A DNA stretch of 46,154 bases from a virus. The notes under the pieces are model-generated. The model saw nothing but the letters and a program-made list of their open reading frames with translations, made no database searches and was not told the origin of the DNA. The stretch is from positions 1 to 46,154 of the IMG/VR virus record IMGVR_UViG_3300008110_007300, one strand, 5' to 3'. Both the position numbers and the translations under genes were made by a program. Of the stretch, positions 4,742-37,905 are shown piece by piece; the stretch's first letter is position 1; each line of letters opens with the position of its first letter.

Positions 4742-4755
4742 TTTAAAAATTAACT

Positions 4756-6615
4756 ATGGACAAATCACAAAGAATTTTATCCGACATTACCGTATATATG
4801 AAATACGCGAAATATGTCCCCGAGCTACAAAGAAGAGAGACTTGGGAAGAATTGGTTACAAGAAACAGGGACATGCACATTAAAAAGTATCCCCAACTTG
4901 AATCCGAAATTAAAAGTGTATACCAAATGGTATATGATAAAAAGGTATTACCATCGATGAGATCACTTCAATTCGGAGGAAAGCCAATTGAAATGAGTCC
5001 AAATAGGATCTACAATTGCGCTTATCTCCCAATTGATCACATTGATAGTTTTTCTGAAGTTATGTTTCTACTATTGGGAGGAACAGGTGTTGGATACTCA
5101 GTTCAAAAACATCACATTGATAAGTTACCTGAGGTTAGAAAACCAAACCCAAGTAGAACTCGTAGATATTTGATTGGGGACTCTATTGAAGGATGGGCAG
5201 ACGCTATCAAAGTTCTTATGAAGTCTTACTTCGGAGAAACAACATCAACTCCTATATTTGATTATTCAGACATTAGACCAAAAGGGGCAAGACTTATTAC
5301 ATCAGGTGGAAAAGCACCAGGTCCACAACCATTAAAAGATTGTATTCACAACATTAAGAAAGTTCTTGATGATATTGAAGAAGGTAGTAAGGCAAGCCCA
5401 ATTCAAGTTCACGATATCGTTTGTCATATTGCTGACGCGGTACTAGCAGGAGGGATCCGCCGCGCGGCACTCATATCCTTATTCAGTGCTGATGATGATG
5501 AAATGATTGCTTGTAAGTCAGGAAATTGGTGGGAACTTAACGCACAAAGAGGTAGGGCTAACAACTCAGCGGCGCTTGTTCGTCACAAAATCACAGAAGA
5601 TTTCTTTATGAATCTTTGGAAGAGAGTTGAAGCTTCAGGGGCTGGTGAACCAGGTATCTATTTCACAAATGACAAAGATTGGGGAACAAATCCTTGTTGT
5701 GAAATTGCTCTTCGCCCTTATCAGTTCTGTAACTTGTGTGAGGTAAATGTTTCTAACATTGAGTCACAAGAAGATTTGAACGAAAGGGTTAAAGCCGCAA
5801 CATTCATCGGAACACTTCAAGCGGGATATACTGACTTCCACTATCTTCGTGATGTATGGAGAAGAACTACCGAGAAAGACGCTCTTATCGGTGTTGGTAT
5901 GACTGGTATCGGATCAGGAACAATTCTTGGATATGATATGAAAGAAGCGGCTGAAGTTTGTAAGGAAGAAAATGAAAGAATTGCAAACCTTATCGGAATC
6001 AATAAAGCGGCAAGAACAACAACTGTTAAACCATCAGGAACTTCTTCTCTTGTATTGGGAACATCTTCAGGTATTCACGCTTGGCACAATGACTACTATA
6101 TTCGTCGAGTTCGTGTTGGTAAAAATGAGTCCATCTATCAACATCTATCTGTTTTCCATCCTGAGCTTATTGAAGATGAATATTTCAGACCCCACGATAC
6201 GGCAGTTATTTCTGTCCCACAAAAAGCTCCAGATGGTGCCATTATGAGAACTGAATCAGCGTTCCAACTTCTTGAAAGAGTTAAAAAAGTTAGTATGGAT
6301 TGGATTAAAACAGGTCACAGAACAGGAAATAACACACACAATGTATCGGCAACTATTTCAGTTAAAGAAAATGATTGGGAACTTGTTGGTAAGTGGATGT
6401 GGGAAAATCGTCAATATTACAATGGATTATCAGTATTACCATACGATGGAGGAACTTATATCCAAGCCCCATTTGAAGATTGCACTGAAGAACATTATAA
6501 TAAAATGATGGAATCATTAACAAATGTAGATTTGACAAAAGTTATTGAAATGACCGATGAAACAAATCTTATGGGTGAAATAGCCTGTGGAGCCGCTGGA
6601 TGTGAAGTAAAGTGA
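4756..6615 (+). CDS. nrdJ: Adenosylcobalamin-dependent (class II) ribonucleotide reductase
   Basis: Monomeric B12-dependent ribonucleotide reductase related to Lactobacillus leichmannii RTPR; it makes deoxyribonucleotides through a cobalamin-generated thiyl radical and needs no NrdB subunit or oxygen. All expected catalytic residues are present by spacing: C88 in NCAYLPI and C325 in FCNLCEV as the active-site disulfide pair, N312, radical C314 and E316 in NPCCE (11 residues between C314 and C325, as between C408 and C419 of RTPR), and the C-terminal shuttle pair C611/C616 in CGAAGC (spacing 5, as in RTPR). The substrate-phosphate loop KPSGTSSLVLGTSSG is also present. At 619 residues it is shorter than RTPR (739). 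The stop overlaps the start of the following small Cys protein. The host must make or import cobalamin for it to work. Confidence 0.95.
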   Translation: MDKSQRILSDITVYMKYAKYVPELQRRETWEELVTRNRDMHIKKYPQLESEIKSVYQMVYDKKVLPSMRSLQFGGKPIEMSPNRIYNCAYLPIDHIDSFSEVMFLLLGGTGVGYSVQKHHIDKLPEVRKPNPSRTRRYLIGDSIEGWADAIKVLMKSYFGETTSTPIFDYSDIRPKGARLITSGGKAPGPQPLKDCIHNIKKVLDDIEEGSKASPIQVHDIVCHIADAVLAGGIRRAALISLFSADDDEMIACKSGNWWELNAQRGRANNSAALVRHKITEDFFMNLWKRVEASGAGEPGIYFTNDKDWGTNPCCEIALRPYQFCNLCEVNVSNIESQEDLNERVKAATFIGTLQAGYTDFHYLRDVWRRTTEKDALIGVGMTGIGSGTILGYDMKEAAEVCKEENERIANLIGINKAARTTTVKPSGTSSLVLGTSSGIHAWHNDYYIRRVRVGKNESIYQHLSVFHPELIEDEYFRPHDTAVISVPQKAPDGAIMRTESAFQLLERVKKVSMDWIKTGHRTGNNTHNVSATISVKENDWELVGKWMWENRQYYNGLSVLPYDGGTYIQAPFEDCTEEHYNKMMESLTNVDLTKVIEMTDETNLMGEIACGAAGCEVK

Positions 6616-22866: not shown

Positions 22867-24909
22867 ATGTCATTTACAAATATCACATATACAATAATCG
22901 GAGACCCAAATAATACAAGTTCGGGTCAGATAGTTGTAAACTTTCAAAATGATAATCCACCAACATTATTGGTATGGGTTGACCCAAATTATCCCGCGGT
23001 AAACCTTAATAATGATACGGGATTTATTGTTAGTGGGTTAAGCGGTGGATCTTATGCGTTCTATTTACAAGATTTTGCAACACCATCAGAACAAACTCAA
23101 ATAATTACATTTTTTATATCAACAGGAACTTGTGTATCAATTACAAATGTTGTAAATACAACTTGTGGTCAAAATAATGGAATTATATACGCAAGTACAT
23201 CATCCGTATTAGGACCCCAATCTTATATTCTTTATGATTCGAGTAATAATTCTATTGATAGTAATAGTATTGGTGTTTTTTCTAATTTATCATCTGGCTT
23301 ATATTATGTTATTGCGGATGATGGTGGTGGGGTAACAGGTAGATCACAAAACTGTTTAGTAAAAGATTCTTCTCCTTTGGAATTTGATCTTTATGTGGTT
23401 AATAACTCAAGTTGTACAAATAATTTAGGAAAAATATATGTAACAAATTTAAATGGTACTCAACCTTTTACATACACTTGGTCTAATGGCGTCACTGGTG
23501 TTGATTTTATAACAGGACTGACCACTAATTACTATACTCTAACAGTTACTGACTATTATGGGTGTAGTCTAACCAAAACCGCTTTTGTTGAATTTGATCC
23601 ACCAATAGGTACGGGTATTTTAACAGTAACTCAACCAACTTGTTTTAGTGCCGACGGTATTGTTAACCTTACGATAACAGGAGGAACACAACCTTATTAT
23701 TATTCAGGAAGTAATGGATATTCAGAAATTTCATTTTTACAACAAATTACTTTTACAGGATTACCGGCAGGAAACTTTAGTATAGAAGTTACCGATGCGG
23801 GATTTTGTAAATTTAATACATCAACATTTTTAGTTACACCATCATCCTTTATTGTTGATAACATATCTTTAAGCCCATCAAGATGTGGTGGAACAGGAGG
23901 AACAATTACTGCAACCATTTTAAACAATGGAAGTCCGGCAACATACACATATCAAATATTCGGACCCAACTCAAATCTTATTGAAACAAAAAATACAGGA
24001 GCTCTTAGTTATACCTTTTCGGGATTGTCTTCGAATACTTATACAATTCAAATTAATGATAATGTAACTTCTTGTGTGTATCTGCAAACTGTGAATTTGG
24101 TAAACAATGAACCATTCAATATTGTAACAAATACAACTGGTACTACTTGTAATTTGGCTAACGGATCAATTTATGTTGAGGTAACACAATATCTGACAAA
24201 TCCATTATTTCCACCATTCACAATCTCTATATTAGGGCCAAATAATATTACCAATTCAACAATAGCTGCTTCATCAACAACATTTTCATTTTTACAAGGA
24301 GGAAATTATATTGTATCTGTTAAGGATGGATTGAATTGTACAAAAACCACTAATGTCTTTATTGATAATAGTGTAATTGTGGATTTTGTAATGATTGCAA
24401 ATCCATCAGTGGTTCCAAACCAAAACTCTATAACAACATTTATAACACAAGGTGAACCTCCATTTACAATAAATTGGGTTACAAATAATGTTGGGGGACA
24501 AACAACTGCGAGTGTAAATAACTTAAGTGCTGGAACATACACATTACAAATAACAGATGCTGATAATTGTGTTAGAACCAAGAGTGTACTAATTGAAGAT
24601 GTGACTTTTTACTCATCATCAGGAAACTTTACAATATGTAATTCATCACTGGGACCTGTCAATTATACCAAAAAAGGTTTATTACAGATGTTAATGCAAG
24701 GGTTTGATCAATTAACACCTGGTGGTGTGGGTTGTGTTATAACATCGGCAACATTCACGGCAGAAGTTATAGTAAACGGAACATCATATACAAATTTGTT
24801 CCATTCGACAACAAATTTTAGCAATGTACCTACAGACAATGCTTGGGCGGACACAATCAGAAACTTACTTCTAACAGTTTATGGTGTGGGACAATACCAT
24901 AACAATTAA
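22867..24909 (+). CDS. Tail-region adhesin with SprB-like repeats
   Basis: A 680-residue protein made of about six or seven repeats of 70-85 residues, from around residue 20 to 590. Each runs: a Cys after a TxxxC or SxxC strand, an NG/DG turn, GIIY or GKIYV-type strands, GTQPFTYTWSNG or GTQPYYYSGSNG, then GLxxGxYxxxVTDxxGC. This is the SprB-repeat pattern known from the Flavobacterium gliding adhesin SprB and other large Bacteroidota surface proteins. The C-terminal 90 residues differ (KKGLLQMLMQGFDQLTPGG). It lies in the tail module, so a receptor- or surface-binding role is inferred. The end overlaps the next small frame by 29 bases and may continue into it by a +1 shift. Confidence 0.85.
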   Translation: MSFTNITYTIIGDPNNTSSGQIVVNFQNDNPPTLLVWVDPNYPAVNLNNDTGFIVSGLSGGSYAFYLQDFATPSEQTQIITFFISTGTCVSITNVVNTTCGQNNGIIYASTSSVLGPQSYILYDSSNNSIDSNSIGVFSNLSSGLYYVIADDGGGVTGRSQNCLVKDSSPLEFDLYVVNNSSCTNNLGKIYVTNLNGTQPFTYTWSNGVTGVDFITGLTTNYYTLTVTDYYGCSLTKTAFVEFDPPIGTGILTVTQPTCFSADGIVNLTITGGTQPYYYSGSNGYSEISFLQQITFTGLPAGNFSIEVTDAGFCKFNTSTFLVTPSSFIVDNISLSPSRCGGTGGTITATILNNGSPATYTYQIFGPNSNLIETKNTGALSYTFSGLSSNTYTIQINDNVTSCVYLQTVNLVNNEPFNIVTNTTGTTCNLANGSIYVEVTQYLTNPLFPPFTISILGPNNITNSTIAASSTTFSFLQGGNYIVSVKDGLNCTKTTNVFIDNSVIVDFVMIANPSVVPNQNSITTFITQGEPPFTINWVTNNVGGQTTASVNNLSAGTYTLQITDADNCVRTKSVLIEDVTFYSSSGNFTICNSSLGPVNYTKKGLLQMLMQGFDQLTPGGVGCVITSATFTAEVIVNGTSYTNLFHSTTNFSNVPTDNAWADTIRNLLLTVYGVGQYHNN

Positions 24910-25129
24910 AACAGATTGTAGTCTTCCTGGTAATATTTTGGCTGGAGCAATAATTAAGATGAACTTGTTAATTGATTATGGAATAGCATGTATTTCATCA
25001 GACGCTTGTTGTGGTATAATATCTGAAGATGGAAATGTACCACCTGAAGGTCCTAACTATTGTATTATCGTCGAAAGTGGAAATGCGGGAATTGCTGGAT
25101 TCCAAATAGTAATTGAGACAGATTACTAA
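24881..25129 (+). CDS. Small Cys-rich protein or shifted C-terminus of the SprB-like adhesin
   Basis: An 82-codon frame overlapping the end of the SprB-like gene by 29 bases in the +1 frame. The product (TITIKTDCSLPGNILAGAII, then ACISSDACCGIISEDG) has no initiation features and an unusually long overlap compared with the 1-4 base overlaps common here. The frame is open from 24875. It may be a separate small gene, or the natural C-terminus of the upstream protein reached by a +1 shift or separated by an indel in the assembly. The coding character after 24909 is convincing, since the frame stays open and protein-like to 25129. Confidence 0.6.
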   Translation: MVWDNTITIKTDCSLPGNILAGAIIKMNLLIDYGIACISSDACCGIISEDGNVPPEGPNYCIIVESGNAGIAGFQIVIETDY

Positions 25130-25131
25130 TT

Positions 25132-25144
25132 TATAAATATTTAT
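25132..25144 (+). promoter_or_regulatory. Candidate late promoter element (AT palindrome)
   Basis: TATAAATATTTAT, containing the 12-base palindrome ATAAATATTTAT (25133-25144), 13 bases before the next ATG. It carries the AATATTTAT core seen before other structural genes, and on the same strand also TATAAATA, the T4 late promoter sequence. Confidence 0.45.
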
Positions 25145-25157
25145 TTAAAAATACAAC

Positions 25158-27032
25158 ATGCCAACTACAGTTAAAATAAGTGACTTACCACCATACGGTT
25201 CTCCACAGTCAACAGATGTTGTACCAATAGTGGATGGGACTTGTACTTATAAAATATCACTCAGTACCTTGTCATCTTTTTTTACTGGGTCATCATACAC
25301 AATTCCTGTCACAACAGGTGTAACATATACTAATTCTACAGGTACTTTAACAATAGGAAACTCAACAGGAGGAACCGTGTCAACCACCTCTTTCAATTTT
25401 GTAACAGGAGGAACATATTCTGCCGGAACGATAACCCTTGGAACAAATACAGGTGCCACAACGACAATTACAGGGCTTTATACAGGTGAAACAATTTATT
25501 GGACTGCCGGAACAATAGGTACTTGTAGTATAAGAACAAATAATGGTAGTGGTGTTGATTCACAAGGTAATTACGCAATTGCCGGTGGACAAAACAATCT
25601 TGCAATTGGAACAAACTCTGTTGTATTAGGTGGAGCGTCAAATAGTGCCGATACAGGATCGAATTGTGCTAGTGTTTTAGGTGGAAGATCAAATTGTACG
25701 AACGCTAATTATACTTTCATCGGTGGTGGTTGTGGTAATTTAGCTTTAGGCGCAAGTTCATTAATTGTTGGAGGAATGGGAAACTGTGCAACAAATACTT
25801 GTTCTATAGTTCTTGGTGGTGTTACAAACAAAGCCACAGGTGCTCAAAGTAGTGTTTTAGTTGGTTTGTCTAACTCAGCAACAACAAGTCTATCTTTAGT
25901 GGTTGGTGGAGAATTAAACCAATCAAATTGTACACGAAGTGCGGTGGTCGGGGGATGTCAAAATACAATTAATGGTAGTAATGCATTTATTGGTGCAGGG
26001 TTATCAAATTGTATTGTACAAGGAGGTAGTACATTTATCGGTGGTGGTAGAGAAAATAGTATATCGGGTGAGTGCTCATCAATAGTAGGCGGACAATGTA
26101 ATCAAATAACAGGAACTTGTTCCACGATTGTTGCGGGTAGACAAAATAACATAACTTCTAATTTTACAAGTATATTAGGTGGATGTTTAAGCACTGCTAG
26201 CGGAACATATTCAGTGATAGTTGGTGGTAGATTAAATAATGTTTGCGGTAACTACTCAACAATTGTTAACGGAAGCACAAATTCGATTGATGGTAATTCG
26301 TCAAAATCGTTCATTTCTGGTGGTGACAACCAAGTAATTTCTTGTGGTAATTATAATTCAATTTTAGGTGGAAGAGATAATTGTAATTTAGGAACTAATT
26401 CCACAATTGCAGGTGGAGTTACAAACTATATTGAAGACGGATTATTTAATTCGTCTATTGCAGGTGGTAAAGATAATTGTATTCTAAGTGGAAGTTCTTC
26501 TACAATTGCCGGTGGAACAGGAAATACAATTTGTGGTGGTCTTAGTTTTGTCGGTGGTGGTTCGAATAATAGTATAGTTGGTTATAACTCAGTATTAGTT
26601 GGTGGAACAGGAAATACAATAGATGATTCTTCAGATTCTTCTGTAATAGTTGGTGGAAAAAATCATAACATTATCACATCTCCTAGAGGAACAATAAGTG
26701 GGGGTTATATGAATGTTATATCCGCCGCAACAGGATCAACAATAGTTGCTGGAGATTGTAATACAATTATAGGTGGAACATATTCATTTATCGGATCAGG
26801 AGCTAGAAATTGTATAAATTCCCAACAATCAGCAATACTTGGAGGATCAGATAACTATACTAATGGGTTAAGTTGTGTATTCATAATGGGGCAAAGTATA
26901 ACTGCGGAAACTGCCAATATGGCATATGTTAATAGATTAGCAATTACAAATTTACCAGCAAGTTCAGGTTCTTCCTGTTCAGGAACCCTTTGGTATTGTA
27001 CCTCTAATAATATAGTTTATTATGTTCCGTAA
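25158..27032 (+). CDS. Tail fiber with YadA-head-like beta-roll repeats
   Basis: A 624-residue probable fiber or adhesin. The N-terminus (VKISDLPPYGSPQSTDVVPI, then VDGTCTYKISLSTL) is of a type common at the start of phage fiber proteins. From about residue 134 to 578 it consists of roughly 29 repeats averaging 16 residues with the pattern SxIxGGxxNxI, giving a stacked beta-roll like the head of YadA-type trimeric adhesins. Many turns carry Cys (SNC, DNC, GEC). The short C-terminal region (YVNRLAITNLPASSG, then NNIVYYVP) looks like a conserved end motif. A trimeric receptor-binding fiber is inferred. No intramolecular chaperone or peptidase S74 domain is seen. Confidence 0.85.
   Translation: MPTTVKISDLPPYGSPQSTDVVPIVDGTCTYKISLSTLSSFFTGSSYTIPVTTGVTYTNSTGTLTIGNSTGGTVSTTSFNFVTGGTYSAGTITLGTNTGATTTITGLYTGETIYWTAGTIGTCSIRTNNGSGVDSQGNYAIAGGQNNLAIGTNSVVLGGASNSADTGSNCASVLGGRSNCTNANYTFIGGGCGNLALGASSLIVGGMGNCATNTCSIVLGGVTNKATGAQSSVLVGLSNSATTSLSLVVGGELNQSNCTRSAVVGGCQNTINGSNAFIGAGLSNCIVQGGSTFIGGGRENSISGECSSIVGGQCNQITGTCSTIVAGRQNNITSNFTSILGGCLSTASGTYSVIVGGRLNNVCGNYSTIVNGSTNSIDGNSSKSFISGGDNQVISCGNYNSILGGRDNCNLGTNSTIAGGVTNYIEDGLFNSSIAGGKDNCILSGSSSTIAGGTGNTICGGLSFVGGGSNNSIVGYNSVLVGGTGNTIDDSSDSSVIVGGKNHNIITSPRGTISGGYMNVISAATGSTIVAGDCNTIIGGTYSFIGSGARNCINSQQSAILGGSDNYTNGLSCVFIMGQSITAETANMAYVNRLAITNLPASSGSSCSGTLWYCTSNNIVYYVP
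25559..26890 (+). repeat. About 29 degenerate coding repeats of roughly 48 bp
   Basis: In-frame degenerate tandem repeats encoding SxIxGGxxNxI units. Spacing varies from about 14 to 18 codons and the DNA identity is low, so this is an old protein repeat rather than a recent DNA duplication. Confidence 0.8.
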
Positions 27033-27038
27033 TGTTTG

Positions 27039-28814
27039 ATGAAATCAATAGAATTAACAAGTATTACAGGAATTACACCACCATTTGTGGTAGAAGTGTG
27101 TAATGTTTTTATTGAAAATTGTGTTTTTATTTATCAATCACCACCTTCGATTACAGTCCCACCAAACATATATTTCAACTCATTACCAATAATATTTGAA
27201 ACAGCACCTGTTGTTTTGTTGAAAATAACAGATAGTAGAGGTTGTGTTGTAACACAAGTCAAATATTGTGTAGAAAATATTGTACCACCACTTTATCCTT
27301 ATTGCGATAACTGTGGAAGTGTTGAAGGGTTTGTAAGCAACACTTTTGGTGATGGGTATTACGCAGATGACTTCAGTCCATATTTGTATTTGTATTCAAG
27401 CGGAACATTTGGAAATTTATTAGAACAAGAAAGTGTAGGGACAATGCCTACTGCCGCGGCGGGAACAAGTAGGGCTTATACAAATGGTAAAATGTTTGTT
27501 TCATACGGAATTCCTTTCCCATCTTCTAGTGCAGATACCGGTATTGTGGTATTTGATTCTGGTGGAACTTTAGTTACCACATTTACTCTTGGAGCAGTCG
27601 CGGTTGGGGGTATATCATACGATTCTAGTGTTAATAAAATATTTTTTACTTATAACCCACCACCATATAGTGATAGAAGGATAGGATATTTTGATCCGAA
27701 TACTTATTCGATTACATTGGATGTTGCCGCTAATTGGAGCGCGGGTTTTTATTTTCCTGGGGGAATAAAAACTAATCCGATAACATATGAAAAATATGTT
27801 AAAACATCAGATGGGTATTTTTATATTTTTGGTGCTGGAACAACATCACCGATACCTTTGAAAAAAACTTTAACAGGTGCCACATATACTTTCTTTTTTA
27901 GTTCTGGAGGACAACCTCTGAGTAATGTATTTAATACTCAAACAGGGGAGTTTTGGATGACAACACCAAGAACAGGTAGTACACAAGATATTGTAATAGT
28001 TGAACCTTACACTTATGCCTTAACAGTTGTTAACCAATCGTGTTTAGGGACTTCATATCGAGTAAACGATGCTTACCAAGCAATTACATATTATCCTGGT
28101 GATGGATCACCAAATTCTTCCAAAATGTTTGTAGTGTATAGAAATAATGCGGGAACCAATTATAAAATTGTACAATTTGATACCTCACCACCATATAACA
28201 ATTCTATATTTTACAACATACCAGGAGTAACCTCACAACAAAATTTAATTTATTCTTCGGTTTATAGTAAACTAATTCATAATTCAGGTGGTAATATAAA
28301 TGCTTTTGACCCAACAAGTTCTGTTGTGGATTATTGTCCGACTTTGACATCAATTTACACTATGTCACAACCACTTGAAGATATTGATAGTAAGCAAATT
28401 TTTTATCTCACATCAATAAACAATGTTTTTTGGTTAGGATTGAACGAAGTAAATGCAATTGAATGTCAAGAAAAAGTAATAGATTATTACTCAACAAATC
28501 AAGGCCCATATAAATTTAATGTTACAACATTGAATTGGGAGTCAATGTGTACCACAAATGTATCATATAATACACCAACGACTAATAAGTTTACAATAGA
28601 TGCTCAAATAGGTAATTTCGCAACAGAAGCTTATTTGTCATATTCATCAACATCTGTTAATAATTGGACTCCCATACCAAACATTGCGGGAGATGTTGTA
28701 ATTTCAGCAATTAGTTGGAACACGGGATTAATTTATGATGACCCTGATTCTTCGTTTATTTTGAGAGTCACATTTGTAAGTGGTAGTTGTGAATTATACG
28801 GACCAGTAATCTAA
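27039..28814 (+). CDS. Tail adhesin, N-terminal module shared with 36704-36925
   Basis: A 591-residue protein. Residues 1-75 (IELTSITGITPPFVVEVC, ending LLKITDSRGCVV) are paralogous to the whole 73-residue minus-strand protein at 36704-36925. The rest holds repeated strand units with Asp/Gly turns (GKMFVSYGIPF, NKIFFTYNPPPYSDRRIGYF, SKMFVVYRNNAG), which suggests a beta-propeller-like fold. It ends in a strand-rich domain (FILRVTFVSGSCELYGPV). ATG 27039 is chosen over an in-frame TTG directly before it; the start is 6 bases after the previous stop. A binding role on the virion surface is inferred; the fold is uncertain. Confidence 0.8.
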   Translation: MKSIELTSITGITPPFVVEVCNVFIENCVFIYQSPPSITVPPNIYFNSLPIIFETAPVVLLKITDSRGCVVTQVKYCVENIVPPLYPYCDNCGSVEGFVSNTFGDGYYADDFSPYLYLYSSGTFGNLLEQESVGTMPTAAAGTSRAYTNGKMFVSYGIPFPSSSADTGIVVFDSGGTLVTTFTLGAVAVGGISYDSSVNKIFFTYNPPPYSDRRIGYFDPNTYSITLDVAANWSAGFYFPGGIKTNPITYEKYVKTSDGYFYIFGAGTTSPIPLKKTLTGATYTFFFSSGGQPLSNVFNTQTGEFWMTTPRTGSTQDIVIVEPYTYALTVVNQSCLGTSYRVNDAYQAITYYPGDGSPNSSKMFVVYRNNAGTNYKIVQFDTSPPYNNSIFYNIPGVTSQQNLIYSSVYSKLIHNSGGNINAFDPTSSVVDYCPTLTSIYTMSQPLEDIDSKQIFYLTSINNVFWLGLNEVNAIECQEKVIDYYSTNQGPYKFNVTTLNWESMCTTNVSYNTPTTNKFTIDAQIGNFATEAYLSYSSTSVNNWTPIPNIAGDVVISAISWNTGLIYDDPDSSFILRVTFVSGSCELYGPVI

Positions 28815-28868
28815 TGACTTATTTATTTATATCAAAACATAATTACTTTTCTAAAAACCATTTTTTGG

Positions 28869-28876
28869 TATTTATA
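28869..28876 (+). promoter_or_regulatory. Candidate late promoter element TATTTATA
   Basis: TATTTATA followed by TAAAATAA, 20 bases before the ATG of the Thr-Pro adhesin, in an 82-base gap. Two further overlapping TATTTAT copies lie upstream at 28820-28830. Confidence 0.45.
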
Positions 28877-28896
28877 TAAAATAAGAATCATTTCTA

Positions 28897-31677
28897 ATGT
28901 CGGGTTTATATTATTATGTTTTTAAAGAGTGTTGTGCACCATTTAACTTATATCAATTTGAGGTAAATGCAATACTAACAATTGGTACGGTTTATTCTGC
29001 CAATACACCATCTTTTACAGGATGTGCAACAGTTGTAAGTGCAACAACCTCGGGCGTTTCTGGTGGTACATTCATTGGATCTTATAGCGATTGTACAGAA
29101 TGCGGACAAGTATGCGTAACACCAACCCCCACACCAACAGCAACAAATACACCGACACCAAGTGTAACCAAAACACCCACCCCAAGTCCAACCGTAACTA
29201 GAACACCTACAAAAACACCAACACAGACTCCAACACAGACAGCCACAAATACGCCTACGAACACCCAAACGGCGACAAATACGCCAACGATTACGGCTTC
29301 ACCAACATTCACACCAACACCAACACAAACATCTGTCACACCAACTCCAACACCAACAATTACACCAACCAAGACAAGTTATCCGTCTTCAGCGACTACT
29401 GGTATATTTCAAATACTAACAGGTAGTAATGAATGTATAGTGTTTACAGTTTTACCAATGGGGGTTAGTTGTCAATCAACACCACCTTCATCTCCGACAG
29501 CAAATGATGGGACAGTTCAAATTTTCATAACAGGTGGGACCGCACCATATGATATCGAATGGACATATGAAATAATAACACCATCATCTTTGATAGGTGG
29601 TAGAATTGGTGATCCATCCCCGATTGATGAAAATGTTTTAATACCACCTCCAGGACCAATTTGGTCAGGAATTCCTAATGGTTATTATACCGCGACCGTC
29701 AGTGATTTTTATGGTGATTTTGTTGTTTCAGTAACTTGTGTAGTTTTATATGTAACACCAACACCAACACCAACCCCAACAAAGAATATACAACCAACAC
29801 CAACAGAAAAACCATTTTGTTTATATTTCTCGCCAATAGGTAGAAATCTAACACTAATACCTTATCAATCTCAATTCGTTCATTTTGGTTCATATGTGAA
29901 TGGAAAACCATTATATGTTTGCACTACTAATAATGCGTTGAGCGGTTGGACAATAAGTTATGATACCACAACCTCAGTATGGGTTCTCACAGACCCACTG
30001 GCGGTAAACTCAATACAATATAGCACATTAGGTAATCAAACTAATGTAAACACAACACATATTGGTACAACACCTATAGGATATTGGTCTCAAATAAGTA
30101 CAATATATACCGTAAGAACAGAACAAGGTAATTGTCCAAATCAATTAGTACCATCTTTAACCCCAACCCAAACACCAACACCAACACCAAGTGTAACATC
30201 AGGATATACTTATCCTACACCAACACCAACACCTACGCAAACACCAACAATTGCTGTTATAACGGGTAAAAGATATTTGTTCTTAAAATGTGGATCTCAA
30301 TATGAATTCATAAATCAAGGAACATTACCTCAAATACCAATTATTGATTCAACTAATCCCGGCAATGTTTGTAACATAAATGACGATACCTTATCAGGGC
30401 CTTGTTGGGGTGTTGGTGGAGGTTGCGGAAGTGTTACAACATTTGTACCCAATACAATATATAATCCAAGTTGTCCTGAAATAGGACCTATTGCTCCTGG
30501 AAATACTTTTGGATGGAAAAACCCATTAGGAACTTGGGAATCTTGGACATATTTGGGTGTTTTGGCGAATCAAACAGACGCAATAAATTATTTATTACCA
30601 TATTCTGCAGATCCAGGATTTTCTGTTGTAACAACTAACTCAAACTATTTTACAAATTATGGATCATTTACATTAGATAAAACTAATACTCTTTCGCCTT
30701 TGTTGTCATATTTCACAACTACAACACCATCAGGTCAAGATAGTACATTATCTTATTATAATTTTACTTTTGGATTCCCAACTTGTGAAAGTTGTGATGA
30801 TGCAATAACCGCATATCAAAATTATTTAGGTGGAACCAACCCAACAACATTATCCGTTTCTACAAATATATCACAACCTGATTGCGGATGTGATGGAAGT
30901 ATTTTTGTGACAACAAATGGAACACCACCAATACAATATTCAATAAATGGCGGAATAACAACAACATTGAATCCTTTATTTGCAGGACTATGTCCAAACA
31001 CATACTCACTATATATTGTTGATAGTTTAGGTAATAACTTTAATCAAAATGTGGTTTTAACTGACATTTCTCCAAACCCTGTCTATACATTATCTCTCAA
31101 TGGTAATGTATCAACAATATTCGATGGAACTGTTTCCTTTAAAAGAATAAGAACAAAAAAATTAAATTGGACTTTGAATATTTCACAACAATTAAATGCC
31201 AATCAAACAATAACAATTACTTTTAAACATACAAGAATTTATAATCAAACACCATACAACTTTACAACAAACGATTCCCCCGCTAGTACAATTGTTATAA
31301 CAAAGTTATATGAAAATAATATTTCAATAAACAGTGTTTTATCACCATCAATAATTGCTTCGACCAATCCAACATTATTTGGGTGTACTTATAATACGAC
31401 ATATCCATCACCGATTTCAGGAAAAACAACAACTGAATCTGAAATATGGTCATTGGTTTTAACCGCTGGAGATATCGTTAATGGATATATACAAAGTGAG
31501 GTAAATTATCAGAGCAATCAATTTGATCCTAATTGTATAATATCCCAATCATCACATTATTTTGAAATTCTTTCTGCCAATATACAAGGTTGTGATTGTG
31601 GGTGTAATGTGTCAATAGGAGAACCAATATATTTTGTAAACAATTTAGGACCAAACCCTATATTAATAGGGGGTTAA
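28897..31677 (+). CDS. Modular adhesin with Thr-Pro linkers and SprB-like units
   Basis: A 926-residue modular protein. Order: an N-terminal Cys-containing module ([12 protein letters not shown] to [10 protein letters not shown], residues 1-74); a long TPTPT-type linker (about 75-161); a domain with SprB-like character ([37 protein letters not shown]); a second short TP linker (about 286-305); a module starting [12 protein letters not shown]; a third TP linker (about 421-452); a module [13 protein letters not shown] to NYFTNYGSF that is paralogous to one in the minus-strand adhesin; then an SprB-like unit ([19 protein letters not shown]) and a beta-rich C-terminus with CDCGC. Thr-Pro linkers form extended stalks. 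Host-surface binding is inferred. No signal peptide is seen, as expected for a virion protein. Confidence 0.83.
29119..29377 (+). repeat. Thr-Pro coding repeat (ACACCA-type)
   Basis: Low-complexity 6-base-like repeat (ACACCA/ACNCCN) encoding TP, TPT and TxTP units. Shorter copies follow at about 29754-29810 and 30157-30250 in the same gene, and inverted copies occur in the minus-strand adhesin near 35311-35400, 35700-35740, 35788-35858 and 35905-35930. Confidence 0.8.
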
Positions 31678-31689
31678 AACTTAAGTTTG

Positions 31690-31700
31690 AATATTTAATA
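31690..31700 (+). promoter_or_regulatory. Variant late promoter-like element AATATTTAATA
   Basis: AATATTTAATA ends 4 bases before the ATG of the next structural gene. It differs from the consensus at the seventh core base and resembles GAATATTTAA before the gp6-like gene (7324-7333). Confidence 0.35.
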
Positions 31701-31704
31701 AAAG

Positions 31705-32073
31705 ATGGCATACATTTTAAAAAATACAACAGGTTTAATTAATACAAGAGTTACTGATACTGGAAGACAAAAAATGTCCGAAGGAAATTTTAACATTGCT
31801 TATTTTCAAATTGGTGATAGTGAAATATGTTATAATTGTATTAATGGATATGATCAAACAAACAACTATATTCTTGAGCCAAATTTCAATTCACAAAATT
31901 CTACAAGAACACCATATTCAAACAAACAAAATGTAAAATACCCAATGTATGTCCAAGGAGTATCAGGAAATACATATGGAATACCATTTATGGCATCGAC
32001 ATTTGATTCTGTTTATAATACGGCCTTGGAATGTCTTGACAACTACCGCATACACAATATCATCCGATTATAA
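31705..32073 (+). CDS. Fiber-like structural protein, N-terminal part (frameshifted)
   Basis: The start of what is probably one gene of about 750 codons ending at 33958. It opens with MAYILKNTTGLINTRVTDTG and continues with GNFNIAYFQIGDSEICYNC, a strongly protein-like N-terminus. Coding sense continues to about FMASTFDSVYNTALEC (near 32035); the last dozen codons (DNYRIHNIIRL) look out of frame. The continuing sequence, LTTTAYTISSDYKVDTFSF, is in the +1 frame. An inserted base near 32030-32040, or a +1 shift at TGT CTT GAC, would join the two. I do not recognise the family of the N-terminal domain. Confidence 0.78.
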   Translation: MAYILKNTTGLINTRVTDTGRQKMSEGNFNIAYFQIGDSEICYNCINGYDQTNNYILEPNFNSQNSTRTPYSNKQNVKYPMYVQGVSGNTYGIPFMASTFDSVYNTALECLDNYRIHNIIRL

Positions 32074-33958
32074 AGTTGATACATTTTCATTTGCGGGAGG
32101 AAACCAAATATCACTGGTATCTGATCCTTGTAATGCTAATGGAACAATATCTGTTGGTGACTTTATTACTTTATTTATAGATGAAACTGCAGTCTGCGGT
32201 GATGCTCTTAGTTGTTATCCTGTTTTAACATTTAGAATAACAGGAATAACCGCAGGACCTGTTTATGAATTAGATAGAAACCTACCTATTTTATCCACAA
32301 TCGGAACCTATGCCAGAGCTTTGGTTTACCCTTCGGGAATGACTGTTTTGTATGACACTTATACTCCACAACCACACTGGTATACAGATGTGATTGATTT
32401 TGAAAGTGTCTGTACAACAGATGCCTTCGATGTTGATATATGGAATATGAATATTCCTTGGACTGAAACACCGGCAGGAATTAACACGGCAAATTATGTT
32501 GGTTACGATGGTTTCGGATCAATTCAATATATTGGGACAAAGGATTATTTGGGATACAACTCACAATCTGGTCAAACAGATAGTGGGGGTGCATATTATT
32601 TCAATTCTTTTGGGGAAAGAGTTTACACAGTAATCCCATTACCATTATCAACAACTGACACCACAACATCCAATATAAATGGTCCTGGAGGAAGAAATAG
32701 TTTGGTAAGTCAATACCCTTTACCAACAGGATCTACAGTTGGAGATATTCAAAAAACTATAGCAATTGTTCATTATACAAACAATACTATAGATTATTTC
32801 TATGGGGAAAAATTCGCAACAGAACCATACGATTCAACAAATCCAAATAACACACAAGGATTGGCCAGAAATTTCCAAGTATCATTACCTTGGCTTTCTT
32901 GGCATAAATCACCAACTTGTACTTGTTCAGGTCAAACATTTTACATTGACCCCCAAGGATTTGACGATTTTAATCTATTTCAGATCAATTATGTTTATTC
33001 AAATAGGAATGAAGATATGAACGATCCTGGTATTAGATATTATAATTTGTGGGACACAAATCCTAATATTAATGGTTTTCCAAACAGAGTAGGTAAAGTA
33101 TTCCCTGACCAAAAAATTATAGTTTTTGATGATGAAGAGATTGTTGCGGCAATGTCTTACAAATCAAATAGAAGTTGGACATTACCCGCACCAAAAATAT
33201 CTTTGATAACACCTAATGTTTGTGAAGGGTCAACAGGAGGCTCAACAGGGGTGTTAAGTGCTGATACTGAATACCTTTATGTTACATATAGATTAGAAGA
33301 TAGTGGAACAACATTTAATACATTACATTGTAATTATTACCAAGTAATTTCGGGACCATCATCAGGGTGCTCAACCACTGACCAATGTGTATCTGTAAGA
33401 TTTGGAAATGAGTTCCCTTGTTTACATACAAATGTTGGTACAACCCTTTCAGGTTTTACCGCAAACAGATTTTCAGTTATATGTCAAAAAGTGGTTGGTG
33501 AATCAAGACCGAATCCATATGGTTGGAAAGAAATTGATTTCACATCTCAATTATCATTAGTGGGTGGACAGATTTCTGCTTCGGCACTTACTTCTACAAC
33601 ATTTGTTGTTTGTACTGAAAATTATAACTCAGCACCACTTTACGACTTGTCAAATTATATTAATTTAACACAACTTGGAACAACAGGTTCTAGCCTAAAT
33701 TTTGGTGATGAATATTATTTTTACGGTACAATTGATACTGATATTACTGCAACAATCTATGAAATGAAGTATCTCATTAATATGGGATCAAATCAATATA
33801 CATACTCAAGTAACCCGACTTGGACTCCAGGTCAATCTATTTACTTTACCGAGATAGGACTATATGATTCTAACAAGGATCTTTTGGTGGTAAGTAAGTT
33901 TCAATCACCCGTAAAGAGATTAGGAGTACAACAAGCGTTGGTTAAATTTGATTTTTAA
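31949..33958 (+). CDS. Fiber-like structural protein, C-terminal part (frameshifted)
   Basis: This frame has an ATG at 31949, but its first codons (to about 32034) overlap the upstream part and give an improbable His/Tyr/Trp-rich sequence; true coding in this frame starts near LTTTAYTISSDYKVD (about 32036). The body is beta-rich with scattered Cys, and the C-terminus has WTPGQSIYFTEIGLYDSNKD and LLVVSKFQSPVKRLGV, a motif like the ends of phage tail-collar/fiber-connector domains (TEIGLYD...LLAVAKF). The joined protein of about 750 residues is likely a tail fiber or fiber-connector. The RuvC-like gene starts 3 bases after the stop. Confidence 0.8.
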   Translation: MSKEYQEIHMEYHLWHRHLILFIIRPWNVLTTTAYTISSDYKVDTFSFAGGNQISLVSDPCNANGTISVGDFITLFIDETAVCGDALSCYPVLTFRITGITAGPVYELDRNLPILSTIGTYARALVYPSGMTVLYDTYTPQPHWYTDVIDFESVCTTDAFDVDIWNMNIPWTETPAGINTANYVGYDGFGSIQYIGTKDYLGYNSQSGQTDSGGAYYFNSFGERVYTVIPLPLSTTDTTTSNINGPGGRNSLVSQYPLPTGSTVGDIQKTIAIVHYTNNTIDYFYGEKFATEPYDSTNPNNTQGLARNFQVSLPWLSWHKSPTCTCSGQTFYIDPQGFDDFNLFQINYVYSNRNEDMNDPGIRYYNLWDTNPNINGFPNRVGKVFPDQKIIVFDDEEIVAAMSYKSNRSWTLPAPKISLITPNVCEGSTGGSTGVLSADTEYLYVTYRLEDSGTTFNTLHCNYYQVISGPSSGCSTTDQCVSVRFGNEFPCLHTNVGTTLSGFTANRFSVICQKVVGESRPNPYGWKEIDFTSQLSLVGGQISASALTSTTFVVCTENYNSAPLYDLSNYINLTQLGTTGSSLNFGDEYYFYGTIDTDITATIYEMKYLINMGSNQYTYSSNPTWTPGQSIYFTEIGLYDSNKDLLVVSKFQSPVKRLGVQQALVKFDF

Positions 33959-33961
33959 TTT

Positions 33962-34561
33962 ATGAGAAAAACATTGAAGAATAGCCCAAAGGTTTTGGGA
34001 CTTGATGTGTCAACTAAAACTATAGGATGGGCATTGTTCGATTGGTCAAATAAAGAACTTTTGGAATTAACACACATTTCACCAAAACCAAAATTACCAG
34101 ATGACAATAAGTTTCACGAATTATTAGAAAAATCTAATTTGTTTAAACATAAAGTTTTACAATATAAGAATTTAGGTATTGTTAAAGTTATTATTGAGGA
34201 ACCACTTTTGAATTCAAATAATGTATATACAATAGGAACTTTACTAAGATATAACACATTAATATCAAAAGAAATATACGATGTTTTAGGTATAGTACCT
34301 GAATATATATCCACTTACAATGCTAGAAGATACGCTTTTCCTGAACTTGTTCAGAAAAATGACAAGAACAAGTTTGTACTCTTTGGTGGATTACCAAAAG
34401 ATATTGACAAGAAGAATATTATTTGGGAACAAGTTGCAAAGATAGAGCCACAGATTACTTGGCAGTATACAAAAAACAATACTCTGAAAAAGGAAAATTT
34501 TGATATGTCAGATGCATATACCGCAGTTAGAGGTTATATGAAACTAAACAATTATTGGTAA
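33962..34561 (+). CDS. ruvC: RuvC-like Holliday-junction resolvase
   Basis: A 199-residue RNase H-fold nuclease. The four acidic residues expected for RuvC-type catalysis are visible: D15 in VLGLDVSTKTIGWALF, E79/E80 in KVIIEEPLL, and D181/D184 in NFDMSDAYTAVRGY. Length is close to RuvC (173). It would cleave branched DNA during phage recombination or before packaging, the role T4 endonuclease VII plays with a different fold. It sits alone between the tail genes and the inverted adhesin cassette, away from the recombination cluster. It is followed by a bidirectional terminator. Confidence 0.88.
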   Translation: MRKTLKNSPKVLGLDVSTKTIGWALFDWSNKELLELTHISPKPKLPDDNKFHELLEKSNLFKHKVLQYKNLGIVKVIIEEPLLNSNNVYTIGTLLRYNTLISKEIYDVLGIVPEYISTYNARRYAFPELVQKNDKNKFVLFGGLPKDIDKKNIIWEQVAKIEPQITWQYTKNNTLKKENFDMSDAYTAVRGYMKLNNYW

Positions 34562-34584
34562 TAAATTTTTTTTAAAAAAATAAT

Positions 34585-34611
34585 AAAAAATACCCTTTAT
34601 GGGTATTTTTT
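34585..34611. terminator. Bidirectional Rho-independent terminator
   Basis: AAAAAATACCC (34585-34595) pairs with GGGTATTTTTT (34601-34611) around a 5-nt loop. With an A run on one side and a T run on the other, it can end both the + strand RuvC transcript and the minus-strand adhesin transcript, whose stop codon begins in the stem. Confidence 0.88.
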
Positions 34612-36704
34612 TATGCACAATCGGCACACCCACCTAAAGGACCACCAATTCCTGATTGATCAAAGAAGTAATCACCATATGGATGATTAACCCAAACATA
34701 AGGAGGATATGGACCGCTCGGCCAACTTGTAAGAGCTGGTTTACTACCTGACAATACGCCATAAACAATACTATCCAAACTCCAACAATTAGACGCTGCG
34801 GGAGAAGCAAATGAAACAAATAAGTTCGGATTATATTTTACCGTGTCACCAACTTGTAATTGATAATTACCTACAAACGCTGGTCCATATTGTAAGATGG
34901 CCTCATCAGTATTACAATTTTTGAATACATATATCGGGTAATTAGATGGTGCTAAATTAAGGTTTGAGTTACATTTAACAGGTGTTGATGGTACATAATT
35001 TAAACCATTGTCAGTAAAATAATCACCATCATATGTTAAGTATCCTTGAGTTAGACCAAATGTTGTTTGTATATAGTTTTTCAAATCAAGCTCAGTTCCC
35101 ACAAAAATTTCTCTATATACATAATCATACCACTCGATCGGAGAAGAAGGGTTAGTATAACCTAAGGTTCCCACATTTACACCAAATGATACAACTTGAC
35201 TAGCATTTGGAATCAAATTAGGGTAAGGTATACTTTGTGCAATTATTGGTATTGTAGGAGGAACTTTACTACATACTCTATATATATGATATGTTTGGAA
35301 TATTGGATCTGGTGTTCCACTAGGTGTTGGAGTCATTGTTTGTGTCGGAGTAGGTGTCGGAGTCAGAGTTGATGAAGGTGTAGGGGTAGGACTTGGAACA
35401 ACTAAGCTACAGAAAGAACAATCAATACCGGCATACTCTTTAAGTTCTATAAATGTATTCACGCTTCCATCAGTTACGCCCGAGAATCTTACACAACTTG
35501 GAGTACCACCAATCAAGGCAAAGAATGTATCGCCTGTTACATAAGGACCACCACTAAATGGAACCTGTGTTGTATAATATAATGATCCACTATCACAATC
35601 TACCCAAATAGAAACCTGATTTCCACAAATCATATTACCCTCAAATGTATTGAATATCGCACTTCCCGAAATGAAACAATCAAAAGGTGGTGTATATGGT
35701 GCTGGTGTTTGGGATGGTGTAGGTGTTGGTGTTGGAGTAAAAGAATTTACGGTAAAAAATACATCTGTTAAATTACACGGATTGATCGTCGGTGTTGGAG
35801 TCGGTGTTGGAGTCGGTGAAGAGGTTACCGTAGGGGTTGGAGTCGGAGTTGGTATTACATCACAATCAAATAGTGCAGTAAAATCATTTAAAGAACAATT
35901 TACTGTAGGGCTTGGCGTTGGTGTAGGACATATATTACCACCAAACAATTCATCACAAATATCAGGACATTGACTATAACAAGGTTTTGCTCCAAATAAA
36001 TCACAACTTCCACCTAAAGATGTGGATAAACACCAAGAAGTATCGCCTGTTGAGTAATAAATGTAACCAGGGTCAGATCCTCCTGTAAAGTAAGAATATC
36101 CATCAAAAGTTCCCGCTGACACATAATTTCCGTCATACCCTGAAAACGGTCCGTATTCAGTATAAAGACAAAAGCTATCATAACAACATCCTGAGTTGAC
36201 ATCAAAACAAGGATCAACTGTATGGGTAATTCCGGTACATTCAATACAAGTGCCGGCTAAAACAGGATCTCTTTCATAACTACTGTAAAAGTAATTTGTA
36301 TTTGTGCCTCCGGTACTTAAGACCTCAAAACATCCTTGTAATCTGCATGGGTAAAAAGTTGTAATTTGGGAAACATTAGTTAGCGCTGAGAAATAGTATG
36401 AATTTGGAGGTATACCAGTCAGATCAAAACTTGTAGAGTCACCAAACACCGAAACAGTGTCAGTTATATTGTTATCAGGACAACAAGCAGAAAAAGTATA
36501 GACAATTGGTTCTGTGGTTACCAATTCATATAGACCACTATAAACATTAATACTTACTGAGTTACCAGTACAATGTGACACATAATATATTGATCCATCA
36601 GGAACCGCGACACTATCACTATCACAACTTATAGCGTTTTCGAAATATACAACACAATTCGTAACACCGGTAACCCTATATAATACACTATCTATTAGAC
36701 TCAT
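34611..36704 (-). CDS. Cys-rich modular adhesin with Thr-Pro linkers
   Basis: A 697-residue modular protein on the otherwise unused strand. It has several Cys-rich modules: VLYRVTGVTNCVVYFENAIS at the start, GCCYDSFCLYTEYGPF leading to DTSWCLSTSLGGSCDLFG, and PCYSQCPDICDELFGGNICP. TP linkers separate them ([20 protein letters not shown] and others). A module after the last long linker (TYHIYRVCSKVP to DYFTDNGLNYV) is paralogous to the one in the + strand adhesin, and the C-terminal module begins YVFKNCN, like the N-terminal YVFKECC of that protein. It ends GGCADCA. The ATG overlaps the stop of the small upstream minus-strand gene (ATGA). Host-surface binding is inferred. An alternative receptor-binding or decoration protein fits equally well. 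Confidence 0.83.
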   Translation of the reverse strand: MSLIDSVLYRVTGVTNCVVYFENAISCDSDSVAVPDGSIYYVSHCTGNSVSINVYSGLYELVTTEPIVYTFSACCPDNNITDTVSVFGDSTSFDLTGIPPNSYYFSALTNVSQITTFYPCRLQGCFEVLSTGGTNTNYFYSSYERDPVLAGTCIECTGITHTVDPCFDVNSGCCYDSFCLYTEYGPFSGYDGNYVSAGTFDGYSYFTGGSDPGYIYYSTGDTSWCLSTSLGGSCDLFGAKPCYSQCPDICDELFGGNICPTPTPSPTVNCSLNDFTALFDCDVIPTPTPTPTVTSSPTPTPTPTPTINPCNLTDVFFTVNSFTPTPTPTPSQTPAPYTPPFDCFISGSAIFNTFEGNMICGNQVSIWVDCDSGSLYYTTQVPFSGGPYVTGDTFFALIGGTPSCVRFSGVTDGSVNTFIELKEYAGIDCSFCSLVVPSPTPTPSSTLTPTPTPTQTMTPTPSGTPDPIFQTYHIYRVCSKVPPTIPIIAQSIPYPNLIPNASQVVSFGVNVGTLGYTNPSSPIEWYDYVYREIFVGTELDLKNYIQTTFGLTQGYLTYDGDYFTDNGLNYVPSTPVKCNSNLNLAPSNYPIYVFKNCNTDEAILQYGPAFVGNYQLQVGDTVKYNPNLFVSFASPAASNCWSLDSIVYGVLSGSKPALTSWPSGPYPPYVWVNHPYGDYFFDQSGIGGPLGGCADCA
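35311..35400 (-). repeat. Thr-Pro coding repeat, inverted relative to 29119-30250
   Basis: On the minus strand this encodes a TP-rich linker ([17 protein letters not shown] and neighbours). The + strand reads GGTGTNGGAGT-type repeats. It precedes a domain paralogous to the one that follows the TP linker at 30157-30250, so linker plus domain together form a long-range inverted, diverged repeat. Confidence 0.7.
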
Positions 36705-36925
36705 CAGAAACTAAAATTCTTTAAAATTATACAACCATTATCGTCCACAACCTTTAAAACCTGATTAGTATTGTTTATCAATAGACTTGGGACTGAAAAT
36801 GTATAAGTTAAATCTCCAGTCGTGATGGTATCAATGTAAACACAACTTGTGAATCCTGTATCACATAGATAAATGTCAAACGGAGAGGTTCCTGAAATAG
36901 CGGTAATATCGAGATTGACAGGCAT
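36704..36925 (-). CDS. Small single-module adhesin-like protein
   Basis: A 73-residue protein equivalent to one module found at the N-terminus of the 27039 gene product. Shared features: a LDITAISGTSPFDIYLC start against IELTSITGITPPFVVEVC, a following CVYI/CVFI strand, and a VLKVVDDNGCIIL end against LLKITDSRGCVV. It is coupled to the large minus-strand adhesin by an ATGA overlap and is the first gene of that two-gene operon, 20 bases after a minus-strand late-type element. It may cap or pair with the large adhesin, or be a leftover of a split protein. Function inferred from paralogy and context only. Confidence 0.75.
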   Translation of the reverse strand: MPVNLDITAISGTSPFDIYLCDTGFTSCVYIDTITTGDLTYTFSVPSLLINNTNQVLKVVDDNGCIILKNFSF

Positions 36926-36944
36926 TGATTTTTAACTTATATTT

Positions 36945-36954
36945 CATAAATATA
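36945..36954 (-). promoter_or_regulatory. Candidate late promoter element, minus strand
   Basis: On the minus strand this reads TATATTTATG, with the TATTTAT core at 36952-36946, placed 20 bases before the ATG of the minus-strand operon. Finding the motif in the correct orientation before the only sizeable reversed operon supports a directional element. The same divergent 50-base gap also holds TTG (36915-36917), 20 bases, TATATTTC (36938-36945) on the + strand, a weak host-type promoter candidate for the primase. Confidence 0.45.
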
Positions 36955-36975
36955 GATAATACCAAAAGTTTTTAA

Positions 36976-37905
36976 ATGGGAAAAGATTTCAATAATATTG
37001 ATGAAGAATCAAATGAAGAGTTAGTAGATTTATTGAGAGAACTTTTTGGTAAGGAAAAAAATTATTACTCAAACAAAGGTCAAATATCTTTCAATTGCCC
37101 CTACTGTGATGATGGAAGAGGTAAAGGAAATCTTGAGATTAATATATTCAAGGAAGCATACCATTGTTGGAGTTGTGGAGACAGCGAAGGAACCCACGGA
37201 CACTTAGGAAAACTTATAGATTTAATTGGTAAAAAGAAACACAAGAAACTTTATAATCTATTAAGGAATGAAGGGGAATCAACAACAATAACACCAAAAA
37301 AGAAAACCCTAAAGTTACCTGAAAGTTTTACAAAGTTCAAAGACTCAAATCCAATATACCCAATTTACAAACAAGCTAAGAACTATTTGTTAAATCGAGG
37401 AATTACAGATGAAATAATTGATAAGTATAGTATTGGTTTTTGTGATAAAGGATCTCATATCGGTAGAATCATAGTTCCATCCTTTAGTAAAGAAGGTGAA
37501 CTCAATTATTATATTGCAAGAAGTTGGGATCCCCACACCAAGATGAAATATAAGAATCCCGAAGCTGAGAAAGACCAAATAATATTCAATGAGAACCTAA
37601 TAGATTGGAAAAAAGACATATACTTGGTAGAAGGAGTCTTTGATGGATTTTTCTTGGAAAATAGTATACCCATGCTTGGAAAACACTTGAGTCAACTTCT
37701 TTTTGACACAATATATGAAAAGGCTAAGAAAAATATTATAATTTGTCTTGATGGGGATGCTTACGAAAATGGACTTAAATTATACCACGAACTTAATGGG
37801 GGAAGATTGTTTGGTAAAATAAAAATCGTTAAATTACCTCAAGACAAAGATGTTTGTGATCTTAAAGGTCAAATAAATGAATATTTCGTAACAATTAAAG
37901 ATTAA
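36976..37905 (+). CDS. DNA primase (DnaG/T4 gp61-like)
   Basis: Makes RNA primers for lagging-strand synthesis with the DnaB-type helicase at 3359. The 309 residues show an N-terminal zinc-binding domain with CPYC (41-44) and CWSC (64-67), a linker region (TPKKKTLKLPESF), and a TOPRIM catalytic domain with E219 and D223 in LVEGVFDGFF and D259/D261 in IICLDGDA, which bind the catalytic metals. Length is close to T4 gp61 (342) and shorter than cellular DnaG, which has a C-terminal helicase-binding domain lacking here. It opens the second replication/recombination block, divergent from the inverted adhesin cassette. Its stop overlaps the nuclease start by one base (TAATG). Confidence 0.93.
   Translation: MGKDFNNIDEESNEELVDLLRELFGKEKNYYSNKGQISFNCPYCDDGRGKGNLEINIFKEAYHCWSCGDSEGTHGHLGKLIDLIGKKKHKKLYNLLRNEGESTTITPKKKTLKLPESFTKFKDSNPIYPIYKQAKNYLLNRGITDEIIDKYSIGFCDKGSHIGRIIVPSFSKEGELNYYIARSWDPHTKMKYKNPEAEKDQIIFNENLIDWKKDIYLVEGVFDGFFLENSIPMLGKHLSQLLFDTIYEKAKKNIIICLDGDAYENGLKLYHELNGGRLFGKIKIVKLPQDKDVCDLKGQINEYFVTIKD

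Follow-up and report, generated by a model that had tools for sequence, protein, structure and literature searches.

The tail-fibre region analysed here very probably contains a self-contained, rearrangement-prone fibre cassette that inverts on an evolutionary time scale and does not act as a population-level switch. The window, i.e., the whole stretch of DNA under study, is a 46,154-bp IMG/VR virus record and represents a genome fragment with a G+C content of 33%, in which no tRNA genes were found. Its genes are numbered g1 to g38 along the sequence, and g15 to g25 form the region of interest. Matches to PHROG families comprise gp25- and gp6-type baseplate wedge proteins, a DnaB-like helicase, and an SbcCD (gp46-47)-like nuclease, and judged by these matches the phage is a T4-like myovirus. 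Further PHROG matches apply to a ribonucleotide reductase, a sigma factor, a primase, and an exonuclease. The host is probably a member of the Bacteroidota, because g15 carries SprB repeats and the nearest isolate by primase is a Flavobacterium phage (30% identity).

A preliminary description of this DNA had pointed out two oppositely oriented adhesins with ACACCA-type Thr-Pro linkers, and had proposed that recombination between them inverts the intervening segment and exchanges their C-terminal halves. Both large open reading frames (ORFs) and their linkers were confirmed, and the minus-strand pair g24-g23 is indeed the only sizeable reversed block within the window. The features of the region are as follows.

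22867..24909, plus strand: g15, SprB-repeat fibre-like protein, fixed left flank (PF13573, 1.6e-7)
25132..25139, plus strand: TATAAATA, T4-late-promoter-like motif at the upstream end of the cassette (sequence scan; 26 nt before the g17 ATG, start to start)
25158..34561, plus strand: fibre cassette in window orientation, comprising g17, g18, g19, g20/g21, and g22 (ORFs and comparison with relatives)
27036..28814, plus strand: g18, fibre-like protein, N-terminal residues 4-74 paralogous to g24 (E = 4e-4; profile 2e-14)
28897..31677, plus strand: g19, Thr-Pro-linker adhesin/fibre of 926 aa (ORF)
29119..30255, plus strand: low-complexity Thr-Pro (ACACCA-type) linkers of g19 (approximately 29119-29373, 29752-29811, and 30157-30255)
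31705..33958, plus strand: g20/g21, conserved fibre-region protein (31705-32073 and 31949-33958; a single ORF in 188 of 189 relatives)
33962..34561, plus strand: g22, RuvC-like Holliday-junction resolvase, last gene of the block (phrog_159, 2e-7)
34585..34611, no strand assigned: bidirectional terminator hairpin between g22 and g23
34611..36704, minus strand: g23, Thr-Pro-linker adhesin/fibre of 697 aa (ORF; conserved core at residues ~180-410)
35310..35935, minus strand: Thr-Pro linkers of g23 (approximately 35310-35402, 35697-35738, 35779-35859, and 35899-35935)
36704..36925, minus strand: g24, 73 aa, first gene of the minus-strand operon, with a domain that also forms the N-terminus of many large fibre ORFs
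36926..36975, no strand assigned: divergent intergenic gap of 50 bp between g24 (minus) and the primase gene (plus)
36976..37905, plus strand: g25, DNA primase, fixed right flank (phrog_47, 2e-43)

To collect relatives, IMG/VR was scanned with g22, g25, and the g22 genes of two relatives, revealing 223 loci, some of which share a contig. None of the contigs in this collection was near-identical to the window (best g22 identity 76%), and both orientations are thus seen only across relatives. Four arrangements were distinguished. Arrangement A corresponds to the window, with g15, the fibre genes, g19, g20/21, and g22 on the plus strand, followed by g23 and g24 on the minus strand and g25 on the plus strand. 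In arrangement B, g15 on the plus strand is followed by g22, g20/21, g19, and a fibre gene, all on the minus strand, and then by g23 and g24 (minus) and g25 (plus). In arrangement C, the fibre block keeps its orientation and the g23-g25 side is reversed, and in arrangement D all genes are codirectional. After removal of same-contig loci, 83 distinct contigs showed arrangement A, 64 B, 42 D, and 4 C; two loci labelled D (L010 and L058) nevertheless have g23 in the same orientation as in A. The search for both orientations in related phages was therefore positive for the fibre block that adjoins the minus-strand adhesins, and the inverting unit consists of one or more fibre genes together with g19, g20/21, and g22. 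Arrangement C was found in L082-L085 and L149-L152, where the reversed segment is the primase side (g25 with g24/g23), and its closest A relative is L148 (g22 88.6% identical). A large D clade (L099-L136) has a wholly codirectional fibre region with g23/g24-type genes upstream of g19; this order may be near ancestral.

Orientation was mapped onto a FastTree phylogeny of g21 and g22, two genes inside the block (136 rows). The tree required seven changes between A and B, or six when branches under 95% support were collapsed, and shuffled orientation labels gave a mean of 30.9 changes and a minimum of 24. Among contig pairs with g22 DNA at least 90% identical, 259 agreed in orientation and none differed, with the reservation that same-site contigs are not independent and that rare population variants would escape assembly. 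Orientation differences start at a g22 identity of 88.6% for A/C and 84.2% for A/B. Within the reach of the assembled contigs, inversion is thus a recurrent event between species, with a single orientation fixed in each, because all 259 close pairs agree. The proposed host-range switch is not borne out by these data; as no orientation difference was found at or above 90% g22 identity, the block shows no switch-like behaviour.

The breakpoints coincide with gene boundaries, i.e., they follow g15 or a fibre gene upstream of the block on one side and lie at the terminator behind g22 on the other, and the adhesins remain whole. In both A and B, g22 is located at the convergent breakpoint. In 36 B loci, it lies tail-to-tail with g15, separated from it by 0-147 bp in the listed examples. 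Comparison of L139 (A) with L011 and L090 (B) revealed a four-gene block inverted as a unit, with g15, g23, g24, and g25 in place. Amino acid identities within this block were 70% for the accessory protein, 55-56% for g19, 73-77% for g20/21, and 82-86% for g22, and those of the flanking g15, g23, g24, and g25 were 58-84%, i.e., divergence is similar within the block and in its flanks. The flip that distinguishes L188 and L039 shares the g22 breakpoint and leaves a g24-like gene behind in L039; because its left breakpoint differs from that of the other flip, it represents a separate event. An exchange of adhesin C-terminal halves is contradicted by the most closely studied A/B pair, in which the g19 orthologue aligns end to end and the g23 orthologue has not lost its core to another gene. 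A full-length g19 orthologue in both A and B would not be expected after recombination inside the adhesins.

Profile searches for serine (PF00239) and tyrosine (PF00589) recombinases returned no match in the window, itself a genome fragment, which agrees with the earlier remark that no invertase gene is visible. Likewise, 13 of 14 relatives of 194-322 kb contained no serine or tyrosine recombinase over the family cut-off, and a further relative gave one weak tyrosine-recombinase match below it. The exception is the contig of L141, where serine and tyrosine recombinase genes (L225 and L226) lie side by side at ~19.7-21.3 kb, approximately 80 kb or more from the fibre locus. Exact inverted matches between the block ends reached 10 bp in the window and 0-15 bp in four A-type relatives, in a search that a degenerate site could escape. 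No exact repeat above 15 bp emerged there that could serve as a crossover site.

The domains behind the linkers of g19 and g23 had been regarded as paralogous, and the regions containing them as long-range inverted repeats. Local alignment of the two domains gave a score of 52, compared to 39.4 ± 6.8 for shuffled sequences, 28 of 500 of which reached 52. With linkers removed, whole g19 and g23 scored 56, below the shuffle mean of 58.7. BLASTP yielded no pair below E = 0.2, a linker-masked all-against-all comparison of the window proteins did not return g19 and g23 as a credible pair, and phmmer searches with both post-linker domains against all ORFs of the relatives gave no match even at E < 10. 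Alignment of the post-linker regions at the DNA level, which had been suggested as a check, was at chance level (score 25 versus 24.5 for shuffles). Structure prediction without an alignment resulted in mean pLDDT values of 41 and 33 for the two domains, too low to lend the paralogy any support. Homology of the post-linker domains was rejected, since their similarity does not exceed that of shuffled sequence and they show no DNA similarity outside the linkers. The supposed inverted repeats are matches of linker to linker, the longest exact one comprising 17 bp (30220 / 35719-35735); two further 17-bp inverted matches occur elsewhere in the window. As parts of fibre proteins, the Thr-Pro linkers are spacers of the usual extended kind, and they are not recombination sites. 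Residues ~160-400 and ~650-905 of g19 are also found in relatives, in most cases immediately upstream of g20, which is not true of its post-linker domain (~465-605). Close relatives of g19 or g23 were not confirmed in viral contigs, and neither g23 nor g9 had a match among phage records. The preliminary description is hence partly confirmed: the anatomy holds, and the paralogy fails. Its idea of an inversion is partly supported: inversion has taken place among the relatives, but by another mechanism, at other breakpoints, and at a slower tempo than proposed.

In many relatives, the block appears to carry its own late-type promoter. A conserved gene of 58 aa, divergent from the block, is located at its upstream end in 46 loci (28 B, 16 A, and 2 D), and its position relative to g22 is the same in all of them, whether A or B. 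Examples are L090:7512-7688 and L139 (~4600-4790), where it travels with the inverting block; it does not occur in the window. The intergenic stretch beside the gene is strongly conserved: among 26 distinct sequences, all contain WATAAATA directed towards the block, compared to 11% of shuffles. This motif matches the T4 late promoter TATAAATA. In the window, a copy of the latter precedes g17, the first fibre gene, whose start codon is at 25158. With 11 copies found versus 8.3 expected, the motif is not enriched in the window and was rejected as a general promoter map, so that the promoter case rests on the relatives. At the other end of the block, the bidirectional terminator of the preliminary description was recovered as a hairpin with T-runs on both strands (−12.3 and −12.0 kcal/mol, equalled by 5 and 7 of 200 shuffles), as was the divergent gap beside the minus-strand pair. 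Most relatives have a terminator hairpin with T-runs after g22 in either block orientation, and some g22 genes directly abut the opposing stop codon. The block should thus be expressible in either orientation, and either would be tolerable because it brings its own promoter and terminator and no gene is broken.

We therefore favour an arrangement in which two late operons of a large T4-like phage would converge within the tail-fibre region and meet at the bidirectional terminator. The left operon would come from the baseplate side (g14, g15, the fibre genes, g19, g20/21, and g22), and the right one from the gap beside the primase gene (g24 and g23). The comparison shows that the block ending with g22 was inverted repeatedly between species, and its membership of the left or the right operon varies from species to species accordingly. 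As neither an invertase nor a shared crossover site was found, these inversions probably occurred by rare illegitimate or short-homology recombination.

Other explanations have to be weighed against this one. Exchange of the cassette between phages by horizontal transfer, with occasional insertion in reverse instead of a flip in place, is unlikely, but has several points in its favour: the block is self-contained in terms of promoter and terminator, the surrounding fibre genes vary in number and content, and a reversed transfer would look like a flip on a tree of two block genes. Fibre modules of phages are, moreover, known to be exchanged. However, the block and its flanks have diverged to a similar degree, with 86% identity for g22 and 84% for g25 between L139 and L011, which argues against a reversed import there, and with 89% for g22, 80% for g25, and 82% for g26 between L188 and L039. 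That g19 and g23 recombine through their linkers or post-linker domains, inverting a 5-kb segment, swapping the adhesin C-terminal halves, and switching host range, is hardly credible. This reading could draw on Thr-Pro linkers that lie inverted to each other and share up to 17 identical bp in a row, and on the neighbouring block occurring in both orientations among relatives. Yet the post-linker domains lack detectable homology in protein or DNA, the B-type adhesins are whole, there is usually no room for a hybrid gene between g15 and g22, close relatives have the same orientation, and no recombinase was found. Errors of metagenome assembly come next to negligible as a source of the orientation differences. 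All contigs are assemblies, and repeats can cause chimaeras, but the orientations are common to independent assemblies from many samples and form clades (seven changes versus 30.9 expected), and the junctions are clean convergent genes, mostly with terminators.

An active inversion of low frequency, mediated by the host or involving the RuvC-like g22 and too rare to appear in assembled contigs, is highly improbable. It would fit the g22-terminator breakpoint shared by repeated flips and the RuvC-like g22 that always adjoins it, but the block ends lack sizeable inverted repeats (0-15 bp), and none of the 259 close pairs differ. RuvC-like enzymes cut Holliday junctions and are not known to act as inversion enzymes. 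Similarly, we give only a slim chance to the g22-terminator end being a recombination hot spot, at which the cassette would flip in living populations at low frequency via the replication/recombination machinery of the phage (perhaps the RuvC-like g22) and without a dedicated invertase. If so, flips would reassign fibre genes between the two operons.

The closest known counterparts are the G segment of Mu (Gin) and the C segment of P1 (Cin), where a serine invertase acts on inverted crossover sites, flips occur within populations, and the fibre C-terminus is changed. The cassette resembles them in that a fibre block occurs in two orientations beside fixed flanks and receptor-binding genes are affected. 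It differs in that no invertase or crossover site was found, whole genes flip with breakpoints at gene ends and without exchange of C-termini, and orientation is constant among close relatives. Apart from a general remark on moraphages, our literature search on tail-fibre inversion returned only invertase-based cases. Moraphages, jumbo phages of Bacteroidota, show several inversions and rearrangements alongside conserved virion and replication blocks (PMC12619734). The window phage shares with them the features of large aquatic phages, gp25/gp6-type baseplate genes, and predicted Bacteroidota hosts. The passages on the moraphage inversions describe them generally and do not name a fibre/RuvC block, its breakpoints, or its recurrence (PMC12619734). 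The order of baseplate wedge, fibres/spikes, DNA primase, and exonuclease is also found in Flavobacterium phage vB_FspM_immuto (MW353176), which has distant homologues of g7, g8, g21, and g25 (only 25-30% identity). Unlike in the window, all of these genes lie on one strand in vB_FspM_immuto, without a minus-strand adhesin block. The cassette shows how a phage lineage can turn a fibre block repeatedly without a detectable recombinase and with its genes whole, and it cautions against reading a phase-variable host-range switch from the mere presence of two repeat-rich adhesins in inverted orientation.

Regarding individual genes, g22 was not confirmed in GTDB genome contigs and was not found in phage records. 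In the window, g20/g21 is split by an apparent frameshift near 32040, apparently an assembly error or a real lesion. A Cys-containing ORF, g16 (24881-25129), overlaps the end of g15 in a different frame and had no match among relatives; it is perhaps a frameshifted continuation of g15. The only credible paralogy among the linker-masked window proteins links the N-terminus of g18 (27036-27250) with g24 (E = 4e-4). Across relatives and window, 176 small ORFs consist of this ~70-aa module alone, and 68 large ORFs begin with it. Because it occurs both standalone and at the N-terminus of large fibre ORFs, it may be a virion attachment or assembly domain.
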